Positions 16,343-25,252 of a stretch of DNA of 36,356 nucleotides are shown here, piece by piece. The notes below the pieces were generated by a model. It saw nothing but the letters and a program-made list of their open reading frames with translations, did not search any database and was not told the origin of the DNA. Made by a program: the position numbers and the translations under genes. Origin of the DNA: Candidatus Nealsonbacteria bacterium CG23_combo_of_CG06-09_8_20_14_all_40_13 (GTDB lineage: Bacteria > Patescibacteriota > UBA1384 > UBA12157_A > GCA-002773005); assembly GCA_002771215.1 (NCBI GenBank), contig PCRM01000034.1, positions 1 to 36,356 on the forward strand. Reading direction: 5' to 3'. The number at the start of each line of letters is the position of its first letter. Positions within the stretch are counted from its first letter, which is position 1.

Positions 16343-16431
16343 TGGTGCCGGGGGTGGGATTCGAACCCACACGGAGTTTTACCTCCAACGGGTTTTAAGC
16401 CCGTATCGTCTACCAATTCCGACACCCCGGC
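16343..16431 (-). tRNA. tRNA-Leu(TAA)
   Basis: GCCGGGG...ACGGG-CTTAAAA-CCCGT, class II variable arm, GTGGGTTCGAATCCCAC, CCCCGGC-A-CCA. Confidence 0.95.
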
Positions 16432-17388
16432 TCAAATTACCTGCCATTTACCTTCTTTATAATTTAACCTTCCCTCAACTGTAAATCCAGCTGCCTTTTT
16501 ATGCCCGCCGCCGCCGAAAATCTTGGCAATTTGCGAAATATCAATATTATCATCCTCAGTCCGCAACGAGGCGCGCACTTTGCCATCGGCAGTTTCTGAA
16601 AAAAATATGGCTATTTTAGTATCGGCAATACTGCCGATTAAATTGACAATACCGGCCATATCAATTTCGCAAGCACGGCAATCTTGCAAATCTTTCCGCG
16701 TTATAACTGAAGTGCACAAACCGTATTGTTGATTTTGCCATATTCGAGATAAAGCGATTCCCCACAATTTCAAGGCAGTAACTGATTTATTCACAGATAT
16801 GTTTTTAGCAATCTGCTTTAAATTGGCGCCATACGACAAAAGTTTACCCGCAATATCTAAAACTTTTTCACTCGTATTGGAATGTTTAAATCCGCCAGTA
16901 TCTGTGTATAATCCGGTTAAAAGGCACGTGGCCAAATTTTTATCAAAGTCAATATTTATTTCTTGAAAAAAATCAAACAGTATTTCTGCCGTTGAAGATG
17001 CTTCCTGACAAACAATATTCAAATTGGCAATTTTGTGAAGGTCATTTTTAGGATGATGGTCAATGTTTAAAAGATGTCTTTTATGTTTGGCGTACTGCAA
17101 AAATCTTTGAGGAAAGCCTGTTCTTTTCAAATCGCCGCAGTCTAAAACAATAACCAAATCATAGTCGCCCTGCAAAAAGTCATTTTGAATTTTGCAAGCG
17201 TTGGGTAGGAAAGAAAAAAGTGCGGGAATCTCGTCTTTGCCAACAATATCAGCGTCTTTGCCCATTTTTTTCAAAACAGCATATAAAGCAAGAGATGAAG
17301 CAATAGTGTCACCATCGGGGCTTTTATGGATGACAAGAAGAATTTTTTCGCCAGAGGTAAGATATTTTAGGATTTTGTCTGCGGGCAT
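16432..17388 (-). CDS. DHH/DHHA1 phosphoesterase (NrnA/RecJ-like)
   Basis: 318 aa; 'SPDGDTIASSLAL', 'VLDCGD', 'NIDHHPKND', 'TGLYTDTGGFKHSNT', 'GGGGHKKAAGF'. Confidence 0.92.
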   Translation of the reverse strand: MPADKILKYLTSGEKILLVIHKSPDGDTIASSLALYAVLKKMGKDADIVGKDEIPALFSFLPNACKIQNDFLQGDYDLVIVLDCGDLKRTGFPQRFLQYAKHKRHLLNIDHHPKNDLHKIANLNIVCQEASSTAEILFDFFQEINIDFDKNLATCLLTGLYTDTGGFKHSNTSEKVLDIAGKLLSYGANLKQIAKNISVNKSVTALKLWGIALSRIWQNQQYGLCTSVITRKDLQDCRACEIDMAGIVNLIGSIADTKIAIFFSETADGKVRASLRTEDDNIDISQIAKIFGGGGHKKAAGFTVEGRLNYKEGKWQVI

Positions 17389-21260: not shown

Positions 21261-21316
21261 TTTTATCTAATGACTAGTGACTGTTGACTAATTGACCCGG
21301 CGCGAAGCGCCGAAGG

Positions 21317-21643
21317 TGCCTAGGGTCAGAATCGAACTGACGACACCATGATTTTCCAATTAATCGTTTCTTCTCTCAATATAAACTTAGTTTACACCGA
21401 GTAAAACGAGGTGGACTATCTCATCTCCGACGTAACGTCGGAGTTGGGCGCTAATATAAGATTATTGTTGGGACTCACTTATTAGTCTCTACACCTTCTC
21501 TGATACCACAGCCCATCAGAGCTTGGCTCGGGATTGTTCGACATTTTGTCGAAGTTTCCCCGAATTCACCCAATTTTCATCCCCGCCTTGCGACGGGACG
21601 GACCGAAAACCAGTCATGTGCTCTACCACTGAGCTACCTAGGC
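21317..21643 (-). tRNA. tRNA-Phe(GAA) interrupted by a group I intron
   Basis: Exon 1 21612-21643 GCCTAGGTAGCTCAGTGGTAGAGCACATGACT; exon 2 21317-21356 GAAAATCATGGTGTCGTCAGTTCGATTCTGACCCTAGGCA. Spliced anticodon arm CATGA-CTGAAAA-TCATG. CCA is not fully encoded (CCT). Confidence 0.93.
21357..21611 (-). ncRNA. Self-splicing group I intron (255 nt) in tRNA-Phe, between U33 and G34
   Basis: Core motifs on minus strand: AATCCCGAGCCAAGC (21521-21535), GGTGTAGAGACTAAT (21481-21495), GAGATAGTCC (21413-21422); P1 GACU:GGUC with U.G at the splice site; P10 GAAAA:UUUUC; terminal G. Confidence 0.93.
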
Positions 21644-21646
21644 ATA

Positions 21647-22327
21647 TTATATTTTTAAAGATAAACCCTTAATCCAACCTTTTAATTTTCTCATCGATTC
21701 TACTTTTTTTATATATATATGTAATGTTCCATATAGTAAAGTGTTATGTTTTCTTTTTTTCTTACTTGATTTACTTATAACAATCTGTGGTCTATAAAAT
21801 TGTTGTTTTTTAGCTTTAAGAATTTTTGCCCAAAATTTTTGCGTTTTTTCTTTTTCAATATTTGGATGTAAATGAATTCGGAATTTGAAAACAGAATTAT
21901 CTATTTTACAAATTTCTATGAAGAACCTCATAATTAACTGAATTATTTTAGGATCTGAATTGCTAAATCTTACAGCACTTTTTTCTTTTTTACCACCTTC
22001 TGCCCAAAATAATCCTAAACCTATCCAAAATAATCTCTCCTTATTTAATTTCGGAATTTCTTTCGCATAACTATTAATTAATTTATTATGTTCAACTTTT
22101 AAAATTTGCGATCTTTTTTTGTTAAAATTCGTAATATTTCTTGCCCAAATAATTTTGGTTTTTAAAATGTTCCGTTTTTTAATAACTCTTGATAAAGGAT
22201 AATTTTTGAACCAAGTTGACAATGTACTCTTCGGAATATTTAAAAGTGTATTTATTTGATTATAACTTTTTCCTTCTTTCCTTAAAAACCAAGCTTGTTT
22301 TCTTTTATTCGAACTGACAATACTCAT
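21647..22327 (-). CDS. HTH + LAGLIDADG-like homing endonuclease candidate
   Basis: 226 aa; N-terminal HTH 'KSYNQINTLLNIPKSTLSTWFK'; 'IGLGLFWAEGGKKEKSAVRFSNSDPKIIQLIMRFF' resembles the LAGLIDADG motif region; very AT-rich. Confidence 0.6.
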   Translation of the reverse strand: MSIVSSNKRKQAWFLRKEGKSYNQINTLLNIPKSTLSTWFKNYPLSRVIKKRNILKTKIIWARNITNFNKKRSQILKVEHNKLINSYAKEIPKLNKERLFWIGLGLFWAEGGKKEKSAVRFSNSDPKIIQLIMRFFIEICKIDNSVFKFRIHLHPNIEKEKTQKFWAKILKAKKQQFYRPQIVISKSSKKKRKHNTLLYGTLHIYIKKVESMRKLKGWIKGLSLKI

Positions 22328-22374
22328 CTTGTTTTAATTATCTCATTGGTTCATATTATTGTCAAAGTTCAGTA

Positions 22375-22449
22375 TGGTGGGCGACGTAGGAGTCGAACCT
22401 ACAACCTACTGGATGTAAACCAGTCGCTCTGCCATTGAGCCAGTCGCCC
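22375..22449 (-). tRNA. tRNA-Val(TAC)
   Basis: GGGCGACTGGCTCAATGGCAGAGCG-ACTGG-TTTACAT-CCAGT-...GTAGGTTCGACTCCTACGTCGCCCACCA. Confidence 0.95.
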
Positions 22450-22600: not shown

Positions 22601-22689
22601 CTAAATTATAGGAAAATCTTAGTAAAAGTAAAGTTTAGCGATTTCTAAGAAACTACCACTGGCTTAGTACTGGTGATAGTTTCTTTTAA

Positions 22690-23391
22690 TAAAAAAGCCC
22701 CAAGTGGTGGAGGTGACTTATATGAAGTCTCACCACTTGGGGCGGCGCCAGAGAAGGTGCAAGGAAAAGTTTGGCCTGGGAAGGGAGAGAGTTTTTAGCA
22801 ATTTTTCGAGAAAGGCGGCTCGGCGGAGGGGGTTCCCCTACTTAACCGGCTTGTCACTTGTGTTTCCACCAGCGTCGACAACCGGTGGCAAGATAGCCTT
22901 TCTGCCGGATTTATCTCCCATGCGTTTAGTGCATAGGCCGGTTCGCGCCATCTGCCCTACTTCCGACAAAAGAGACAGAACCTTCTTACCGACCCTTACC
23001 CAGGCCAAGAAACGCGGGATTGATGAAGTGCAAAAGAAAGGGGGCAGATCGTTTCCAGTCGCGACGTGCGTGATGGGTCTCATCTCCGCATAGAAACGAC
23101 CTTGGTCGGCTTTCGCCACAAACAGAGCCGTTACTTGGGTTATCCCATTGTGGCTTCCCTCTGTCTGCAGCTCCAGCTATAGCCCGTCTTTCTCTACAAA
23201 CGCAAATCACCAATCCCGAAAAATTTGAGAAAGGGGGGAGAAGCGGCTAATTCGGTCACGTGAGACAAACCGTCCCGCAGGGCAATTGCAGGTCAAATTG
23301 ACCCGCGCCCTGGTGACTATAGCTTCTGTACCATCCCCCTTTCTCAAGTTACCATTAGATAAGTTAATGTTCATCAAACTTTTCAGTTTGA
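22690..23391 (-). ncRNA. Candidate large structured noncoding RNA (~700 nt), unidentified class
   Basis: Own consensus promoter (23399-23427) and terminator (22691-22743); GC-richer than flanks; many nested helices including GGC-GAAA-GCC and an 11-bp helix 23227-23237/23335-23345; no ORF with a clear RBS. Confidence 0.7.
22691..22743 (-). terminator. Terminator of the large ncRNA
   Basis: 13-bp perfect stem GCCCCAAGTGGTG/CACCACTTGGGGC followed by TTTTTT on minus strand. Confidence 0.9.
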
Positions 23392-23527: not shown

Positions 23528-25252
23528 ATGAATAATCTTCAAATCCGCAATTTTGTCATTATTTCTCATATCGACCACGGCAAATCAACGCTGGCCGACC
23601 GGCTTTTGGAGTTGACCAACACTGTGCCTAAAGACAAAATGCGCGCCCAATATTTAGATATGATGGATTTGGAACGCGAAAGGGGAGTAACAATTAAAAT
23701 GGCGCCAGTGAGAATGATTTGGAAAGATTCAATCCTTAACTTGATTGACACTCCGGGCCACGTTGATTTCGCCTACGAAGTTTCCAGAGCTTTAGCTGCT
23801 GTTGAAGGCGCTTTGCTTTTAGTTGACGCCACGGCCGGCATTCAAGCACAGACGCTTTTCAATTTGGAAAAAGCGCAAAAACAAAATTTAAAAATCATTC
23901 CCATAATCAATAAAATTGACTCGCCGGCCGCGCAAATCGAAAAAACACAAGAAGAACTGGTAAGTTTGGGCTTTCAAAAAGAGGAAATTTTGCAAATTTC
24001 CGCCAAAACAGGACAAAATGTCCAAAATGTTTTAAAAGCCATTATTGAAAGAATTCCTCCTCCAATTGAAAATTTACAAAATCCATTAAAGGCCTTAATT
24101 TTTGACTTGCTGTATGACCAATATAAGGGCGTTATTGCCTACGTGCGGGTATTTGACGGGACAATTGCCAAAAACGAAAAAATTAAATTTTTGATAGGGG
24201 AGACAGAAGGGGAGATTTTAGAACTTGGTTATTTTAAGCCGCAGTTTGCTACAGCTTCTAAAATATCCGCCGGCGAGATCGGCTACCTCAAAACCGGCAT
24301 TAAAGAAATTTCAAAAATAATGGTAGGGGACACTATCACGCTCGCCTCTATCGCCCACCCTGAGCAAGATTTAAAAATTGCCGGCTATCAGCAGCCAAAA
24401 CCAATGGTTTTTGCCAGCATTTACCCCATTGAGGGTGAAAACCATAAAAAATTAGCTGACGCGCTTGGGAAATTAAAATTAAATGATTACTCTCTCTCTT
24501 TTAATTTTGAACGGTCAAAAGCATTAGGGGCTGGCTTTCGCTGCGGTTTTTTGGGCTTGTTTCACTTAGAAATTACCAAAGAAAGATTAGAAAGAGAATC
24601 TGCCTTAGAGCTGATAGTTACTTCTCCGACGGTCGACATTCAAGTAACCGAGCACGGCTATCGCGAACCGTATGTTGATTTGGAAATTATCACCCCTCAA
24701 CAATATTTAGGTCAAGCAATGGAGCTAGCGCAATCTCACCGCGGACAATATAAAGAGATAAAATATCTTGGAGACCGGGTAATTGTGCTATACGAGAACC
24801 CGCTGTCTGAAATTATTATTGGTTTTTACGACCAGCTAAAAAATTTATCCGAGGGCTATGCCTCAATGAATTATCAGTTTTCAGGTTATAGAGATGCCGA
24901 TCTAGTTCAGTTGGATATTTTAATTGCCGGCGAAAAAGTTGAGCCGATGACCCAAATTGTTGCCCGCTCAAAATCAGAATCCACCAGCAGAAATATAGTG
25001 AAGAAATTAAAAGATTTAGTGCCAAGGCAGTTATACAAAGTTTCCCTGCAGGCGGCAATTGGTGCAAAAATCGTCGCCCGTGAAGATATTCCCGCCATGC
25101 GCAAAGATGTTACCGCGCCTTTGTATGGCGGTGATGTAACCAGGAAAAGAAAATTATTAGAAAAACAGAAAAAAGGCAAAAAACGTCTCAAGCACTTGGG
25201 CAAAGTGGACATCCCCAGCGATTTATTTTTAGAGCTTTTGAAAATTGATTAA
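23528..25252 (+). CDS. lepA: Elongation factor 4 (LepA)
   Basis: 574 aa; 'ISHIDHGKSTLADRLLELT', 'DTPGHVDFAYEVSRALAAVEGALLLVDA', 'YGGDVTRKRKLLEKQKKGKKRLK'. Confidence 0.98.
   Translation: MNNLQIRNFVIISHIDHGKSTLADRLLELTNTVPKDKMRAQYLDMMDLERERGVTIKMAPVRMIWKDSILNLIDTPGHVDFAYEVSRALAAVEGALLLVDATAGIQAQTLFNLEKAQKQNLKIIPIINKIDSPAAQIEKTQEELVSLGFQKEEILQISAKTGQNVQNVLKAIIERIPPPIENLQNPLKALIFDLLYDQYKGVIAYVRVFDGTIAKNEKIKFLIGETEGEILELGYFKPQFATASKISAGEIGYLKTGIKEISKIMVGDTITLASIAHPEQDLKIAGYQQPKPMVFASIYPIEGENHKKLADALGKLKLNDYSLSFNFERSKALGAGFRCGFLGLFHLEITKERLERESALELIVTSPTVDIQVTEHGYREPYVDLEIITPQQYLGQAMELAQSHRGQYKEIKYLGDRVIVLYENPLSEIIIGFYDQLKNLSEGYASMNYQFSGYRDADLVQLDILIAGEKVEPMTQIVARSKSESTSRNIVKKLKDLVPRQLYKVSLQAAIGAKIVAREDIPAMRKDVTAPLYGGDVTRKRKLLEKQKKGKKRLKHLGKVDIPSDLFLELLKID

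Follow-up and report, generated by a model that had tools for sequence, protein, structure and literature searches.

A tRNA-linked family of putative LAGLIDADG-type homing endonucleases in Patescibacteria and its association with a group I intron in tRNA-Phe

Why should an ORF with a helix–turn–helix (HTH) be lodged between two tRNA genes, the second of which is interrupted by an intron? The question is raised by a 36 356-nt stretch of DNA, referred to here as the window, from Candidatus Nealsonbacteria bacterium CG23_combo_of_CG06-09_8_20_14_all_40_13 (contig PCRM01000034.1), whose phylum consists of tiny, mostly uncultured bacteria. The initial annotation of this locus had placed a putative homing endonuclease between tRNA-Val and tRNA-Phe, outside the intron that it may mobilize. 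The coordinates are borne out, as on the minus strand tRNA-Val(TAC) is followed after 47 nt by the ORF and, after a further 3 nt, by tRNA-Phe(GAA) (Table 1). The region of the ORF is also AT-rich, as had been remarked (GC 0.258 at 21601–22200 versus approximately 0.36–0.45 around it), although the recent acquisition suggested on that ground does not follow from base composition alone. The Val–Phe gap, which measures 1–25 nt in seven ORF-less relatives, is occupied in the window by the ORF and its promoter-like element, which matches 11 of 12 positions and ends so close to the ATG that the predicted mRNA would be leaderless or nearly so. This upstream element, together with dN values among relatives that are far below dS (e.g. 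0.07/0.80 and 0.26/1.54), indicates that this reading frame has not arisen by chance.

Table 1. Features of the tRNA-Val to tRNA-Phe region (positions in the window)
Feature	Position	Strand	Remarks
tRNA-Val(TAC)	22375..22449	minus	upstream neighbour of the ORF
Promoter-like TTGACA-17-GATAAT	22337..22365	minus	second hexamer preceded by TG; element ends 9 nt upstream of the ATG
ORF with HTH and single LAGLIDADG-like motif, 226 aa	21647..22327	minus	ATG start; putative free-standing homing endonuclease of tRNA-Phe genes
tRNA-Phe(GAA), both exons and intron	21315..21643	minus	
tRNA-Phe 5' exon	21612..21643	minus	last base U33; exon joint identical to the continuous gene of relatives lacking the intron
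Group I intron, 255 nt, ORF-less	21357..21611	minus	interrupts the anticodon loop after U33 and before G34
Catalytic core of the intron	21411..21574	minus	match to covariance model R1, 158 bits; the window copy is itself among the model's sequences
tRNA-Phe 3' exon	21315..21356	minus	first base G34 (GAAAAUCAUGG...)

As a rough yardstick, only one other gene of the window lies 5'-adjacent to a tRNA gene on the same strand. It is a DHH phosphoesterase-like ORF (within window 16343–17388; its end is at 16432) that stops exactly at the 5' end of tRNA-Leu(UAA), which means that a tRNA directly after a stop codon is possible for ordinary genes too. On the other side of tRNA-Val, between it and a LepA-like GTPase ORF at 23528, there is a GC-rich stretch (0.51, window 22650–23380). 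It contains neither a convincing ORF nor, even at E≤1, a match to Rfam, and a divergent structured RNA, for example RNase P RNA, is a possibility.

The window tRNA-Phe is missed by ARAGORN at default settings; once introns are allowed, the program reports it, with 255 nt inserted into its anticodon loop. Read by hand, the exon joint is ...ACATGACU joined to GAAAAUCAUGG.... A search of the window against Rfam gave no group I match to the insertion even at E≤1, after which our own covariance model of the intron core was used. In the core of 13 introns, comprising that of the window and 12 similar tRNA introns, 96.8 % of cells are paired and 13 pairs show double changes, with none of 500 shuffles performing as well. 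Segments of the group I P7 type (GUGUAGAGACUA / GAGAUAGUCC) are present, and P1 (GACU/GGUC, closing on U.G) and P10 (UUUUC/GAAAA) can be read from the sequence. Both marks of group I introns, a conserved core with covarying helices and a U.G at the 5' splice site, are fulfilled. On this sequence evidence the insertion, which contains no ORF of its own, is a group I intron; that it is self-splicing is inferred only.

The identity of the protein is less straightforward to establish. The family to which it belongs combines an N-terminal HTH with one LAGLIDADG-like motif and has neither a Pfam nor an NCBIfam name. The stretch 'IGLGLFWAEGG', singled out in the initial annotation, does represent a single LAGLIDADG-like motif: the family pattern is G-x-x-L-Y-W-G/A-E-G-x-K, the position of E110 is acidic in 107 of 108 members, and the family therefore possesses the catalytic acidic residue and the G at the motif end by which such motifs are recognized. 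A profile of the 108 homologues matched I-DmoI in a PDB set (E 1.5e-4), with the family 'LYWGEGsK' aligned over 'LYVAEGDK', and hhalign of the family against the LAGLIDADG_3 repeats of the same phylum scored 22.3 (P 0.0014), compared with a maximum of 15.2 in 60 column shuffles. Sequence profiles thus favour the LAGLIDADG identity. At the Pfam level the HTH is the sole signal in the family; no member had a LAGLIDADG match at E≤0.01 among the Pfam and NCBIfam families listed, and searches of Pfam, NCBIfam and PHROGs with the protein returned only weak HTH or transposase-HTH matches. AlphaFold monomer models are confident (pLDDT 94) and predict an HTH (6–39), a long helix (47–89), the motif helix (96–110) and an alpha/beta domain with, relative to the textbook LAGLIDADG fold (alpha-beta-beta-alpha-beta-beta-alpha), an additional helix between the last strands. 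Foldseek found no significant match for the whole model or the C-terminal domain in the PDB, nor in a viral library, and in its non-significant ranking OmpA-like domains stood above I-Tsp061I (probability 0.84, TM 0.40) and I-DmoI. The assignment consequently rests on profile, motif and genomic context rather than on a fold match, and, with a confident model that finds no significant structural counterpart of any kind, a non-LAGLIDADG fold is not excluded.

Homologues were detected in 30 of the 55 host-class genomes and, across the host phylum, in 119 of 381 genomes sampled, with up to 7 per genome; the named relatives are Patescibacteria/Berkelbacteria MAGs, and a search of genome contigs with a five-row alignment recovered the four nearest relatives only. 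Sequence-level searches, which reach close relatives only, detected no homologues of the protein P0001 in phage records, plasmids or viral contigs, nor of two other clades in viral contigs. Decayed copies were observed at L025, L058/L195, L134 and L140. The position of the family is strikingly constant, with 118 of 132 distinct members lying on the same strand directly 5' of a tRNA gene, which ties the ORF to tRNA sites. The remainder comprise four members located divergently 5' of a tRNA, two convergent with one, one antisense in a group I intron of tRNA-fMet and seven, one of them at the end of its contig, beside no recognized tRNA. The stop codon of same-strand members mostly falls between −23 and +40 nt from the tRNA 5' end, and many family stop codons are the tRNA's own U8-A9-G10 'TAG'. 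In 19 members the second hexamer of the promoter-like element is separated from the start codon by the identical distance of 6 nt, a spacing pointing to putative leaderless transcripts that would run into the tRNA.

The protein tree sorts by tRNA isoacceptor, requiring 26 changes among 22 states over 125 rows, where shuffles required 91 or more, and even Gly-GCC and Gly-TCC, Ile-UAU and Ile-GAU, and Thr-UGU and Thr-GGU members are separated. Before the final count, ARAGORN mistypings were mended by hand: 'Ile(gat)' at L007 and L058 is tRNA-Phe(GAA), 'Leu' at L144 and L149 is tRNA-fMet, and 'Ser' at L092 is tRNA-Tyr. In general, intron-containing tRNA genes were frequently mistyped or missed by default annotation. 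At L144 and L149 the tRNA-fMet genes contain group I introns and a divergent family ORF lies about 100 nt upstream, while at L024 (1425–2214) the initiator tRNA-fMet is interrupted by a 718-nt group I intron that holds the antisense member, the only intron-encoded one seen. The genome of the window (G000) has a second member, L002 (contig C25:4919–5524), which precedes its only matched tRNA-Ile(UAU) and stops at tRNA position 10.

The same niche was found to be occupied by ORFs of a different family. Among standalone LAGLIDADG_3 ORFs (PF14528), used as controls, 10 of 25 lie directly 5' of a tRNA on the same strand (L168, L171, L174, L177, L178, L181, L183, L186, L188 and L189), preceding tRNA-Asp, -Ser, -Cys, -Gln and -Leu, and several end at tRNA position 10. 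Several endonuclease families of the phylum seem to exploit the position 5' of tRNAs and, since LAGLIDADG_3 belongs to an accepted endonuclease superfamily, this lends support by analogy to an endonuclease reading of the window ORF. The tRNA-Asp at L168 carries a 204-nt insertion. The 0.65-Mb G000 genome contains nine LAGLIDADG_3 matches (contigs C20, C27, C38, C14 and C9), some of which, within 807- and 893-aa frames, may be inteins.

The relation between ORF and intron was examined in the 55 genomes of the host class, which were searched with the covariance model. Eleven tRNA-Phe introns were found, eight with a family ORF directly upstream (one decayed, L195) and three without (L199, L201 and L203), while tRNA-Phe is intron-less in 39 genomes. 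No family ORF lies near the intron-less tRNA-Phe at any of 30 loci examined, and none of the family ORF positions listed for the class falls at the other nine. The resulting table (8 both, 3 intron only, 0 ORF only, 39 neither) gives a Fisher p of 3e-7, uncorrected for relatedness; at tRNA-Phe in the host class, the ORF was in no case observed without the intron. In each of the families f5, f9, f15 and f18, ORF-bearing and empty genomes were observed side by side. The sequence ACATGACTGAAAATCATGG, split by the intron in G000, G004, G013, G021 and G025, is uninterrupted in G018 (of the genus of ORF-bearing G004) and G008 (of the family of ORF-bearing G021), among other intron-less relatives. 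Co-occurrence and tRNA adjacency thus support the proposal, made at the outset, of a free-standing endonuclease that acts in trans with an ORF-less intron, although cleavage is only inferred. Introns at other tRNAs (Asn, Thr, fMet and Ser) are mostly without a family ORF, and introns can therefore persist or move without it.

Conversely, most relatives of the ORF are found at intron-less tRNAs, and the ORF is accordingly to be seen as an autonomous mobile element, not as an accessory of the intron. A homing endonuclease beside an intact, intron-less target would need another form of protection, and the anticodon stems of the adjoining tRNAs were compared in this respect. In ORF-linked tRNA-Gly(GCC) the common C30-G40/C31-G39 pairs are kept in 7 of 16 genes versus 77 of 96 elsewhere (p=0.004), and the diversity of pair 31 exceeds that of all 2000 subsamples. 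The anticodon stems of ORF-linked tRNA-Ile(UAU) are likewise atypical (p=9e-4, 14 versus 109), whereas no such deviation is seen in their T-stem (p=0.74). Within one genus, three ORF-less sisters have TCAAG/CTTGA and two ORF-bearing ones TCTTG/CAAGA and CGGCT/AGCCG. The altered stems are still paired and, where genomes are readable, the ORF-linked tRNA is the sole match to its isoacceptor pattern and hence presumably essential. These statistics used sequences unweighted for relatedness and were examined after the fact. Truncated duplicates of a tRNA-Ile 5' half, broken off close to the anticodon loop, stand beside an intact tRNA at L030 (2146–2327) and L018 (about 90 nt upstream of the ORF) and are possible scars of repair after anticodon-loop cutting. 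Together these are three independent pointers to the anticodon arm, in which the introns also lie, but all come from small samples, carry no weighting for relatedness and were examined post hoc. We also considered whether a tRNA 5' half remains after each insertion and rejected this, as remnants upstream of the ORF (score at least 13) were clear at only 3 of 118 loci versus none in reversed controls. The idea of recoded D-arms in ORF-linked tRNAs was also discarded, unusual D-arms being common in unlinked tRNA-Gly too.

Several described systems resemble parts of this arrangement. A free-standing endonuclease gene beside an intron-bearing gene is likewise found in cyanophage S-PM2, where F-CphI and the psbA group I intron were described as 'collaborative homing', and where, according to PMC6083498 (citing Zeng, Bonocora and Shub 2009), F-CphI cuts the intron-less allele and the intron blocks self-cleavage. 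Two characteristics of collaborative homing are fulfilled at the window locus: the ORF adjoins the intron but lies outside it, and the two co-occur, with intron-less alleles keeping an intact site; a third, selective cutting of the intron-less allele, is inferred only. However, F-CphI is an Endo VII-type phage nuclease with a protein-coding target, unlike the present case of a bacterial chromosome, a tRNA target, an HTH and LAGLIDADG-like protein and a family that extends across isoacceptors, for which cleavage is inferred. SegB of phages T4 and T6 (Brok-Volchanskaya 2008, cited in PMC13096335) is a free-standing homing endonuclease linked to tRNA genes, which cuts within them and promotes their inheritance; it is a different protein that acts in phage tRNA arrays on a wide range of isotypes, unlike the single isoacceptor per clade and the fixed 5' placement at single essential tRNA genes seen here. 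Specificity for the anticodon region is indicated for an endonuclease encoded by a cyanobacterial tRNA-fMet group I intron (Bonocora and Shub 2001, listed in PMC3984707). That endonuclease lies inside its intron, whereas the window ORF lies outside. It also belongs to another nuclease family. With I-DmoI, I-Tsp061I and Pfam LAGLIDADG_3 the present family shares one LAGLIDADG-type motif, a conserved acidic residue and detectable profile similarity, and with some LAGLIDADG_3 ORFs of the phylum the placement 5' of tRNAs. It differs from LAGLIDADG enzymes in being below Pfam detection, in its extra N-terminal HTH and long helix, in the inserted domain helix and in lacking a significant structural match. 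LAGLIDADG homing endonucleases also occur in rRNA insertions of Patescibacteria (PMC11270868). Group I introns in tRNAs of CPR/Patescibacteria, and the difficulty of detecting them, have been described (PMC8172020), and the passages retrieved contain no report of an endonuclease family, per-isoacceptor specificity or intron/ORF pairing. No report of the ORF family, its per-isoacceptor clades or the altered stems was found in the open literature.

Taken together, the product of the ORF is probably a LAGLIDADG-type homing endonuclease, free-standing and directed at the anticodon arm of a tRNA gene, which it would cut here in collaborative homing with an intron; the cleavage itself is an inference. 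From sequence, the window ORF appears to help a self-splicing intron to invade the neighbouring tRNA-Phe gene. Expressed from the promoter directly before the ATG, on a transcript that would run into tRNA-Phe, the HTH-containing protein, whose dimer formation is also inferred, would recognize the anticodon arm around ACATGACT^GAAAATCATGG, and uninterrupted tRNA-Phe copies would be cut, the exact cut site being likewise inferred. Repair templated by the donor, again an inferred step, would then copy in both the ORF, between tRNA-Val and tRNA-Phe, and the intron. Insertion of the intron would destroy the target and preclude self-cleavage, making the intron both shield and passenger, and splicing would remove it from the pre-tRNA. 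Relatives would do likewise at about 20 other isoacceptors and, in the absence of an intron, the resident tRNA seems to be protected by changed, still paired base pairs of the anticodon stem. Two inferred reasons may account for the constant 5' placement: the ORF is expressed there, being situated between promoter and tRNA, and its proximity to the cut would favour co-conversion. Against this explanation count the absence of any experiment, of a LAGLIDADG match at E≤0.01 among the Pfam and NCBIfam families listed and of a significant structural match, the additional helix of the predicted domain, the three genomes with the intron and no ORF, the lack of an intron beside most family members, and the unweighted, post hoc nature of the stem statistics.

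The protein might instead be a host factor linked to tRNAs, devoid of nuclease activity and serving as an HTH DNA- or RNA-binding regulator or as a processing aid of the adjacent tRNA (a maturase where an intron exists). WhiA is an example of an HTH and LAGLIDADG-like protein type without nuclease activity, and such a role would suit the strict per-isoacceptor pairing, the strong purifying selection and the HTH as the only Pfam-level signal. It is difficult to reconcile, however, with patchy presence (119 of 381 genomes), decayed copies and empty siblings within a genus or family, with retention of the acidic motif residue in 107 of 108 members, and with a member antisense inside a tRNA-fMet intron when most members have no intron to splice; we regard it as unlikely, without dismissing it. 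It is highly improbable that the ORF belongs to a transposase- or integrase-like element with insertion sites at the 5' ends of tRNAs and with a tRNA, or the 5' half of one, as its own cargo. The resemblance of the N-terminal HTH to those of transposases and resolvases and the few upstream remnants (3 of 118 loci versus none in reversed controls) would be in keeping with it, but family searches revealed no transposase catalytic motif, and the sole conserved motif is LAGLIDADG-like.

Alternatively, the ORF may encode a mobile tRNA-targeting endonuclease that is indifferent to the intron, the two being independent occupants of one hot spot that co-occur by shared ancestry. The intron-less surroundings of most relatives, the intron-only genomes and the many introns of tRNA-Asn, -Thr, -fMet and -Ser without a family ORF are compatible with this explanation. 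Nevertheless, it is quite unlikely given that the ORF is present in none of the 39 genomes with intron-less tRNA-Phe and in eight of the 11 with the intron, with contrasts inside four families, and that an intact exon–exon site would expose the resident gene to cutting. Collaborative homing of endonuclease and intron remains our preferred reading.

Collaborative homing has so far been known from a handful of phage loci. If the reading is true, Patescibacteria would offer a chromosomal system that is naturally replicated many times over, with a separate clade for each tRNA and with occupied and empty alleles within genera, in which endonuclease–intron pairing and the escape of the resident gene would be testable by lineage comparison and simple cleavage assays. 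The family would also supply a set of sequence-specific nucleases, each with a natural target that is evident from the adjoining gene, and its activity would explain why Patescibacteria tRNA genes are frequently missed in annotation and would provide a selective cause for their variable anticodon stems and tRNA introns. In the broadest interpretation, for which we see even chances, about 20 lineages have arisen from a single endonuclease family, each specialized on one isoacceptor and located directly before its tRNA throughout the phylum. Under pressure from cutting at the anticodon arm, essential tRNAs would have either taken up a group I intron or changed the base pairs of their anticodon stem, so that selfish endonucleases shaped tRNA evolution.
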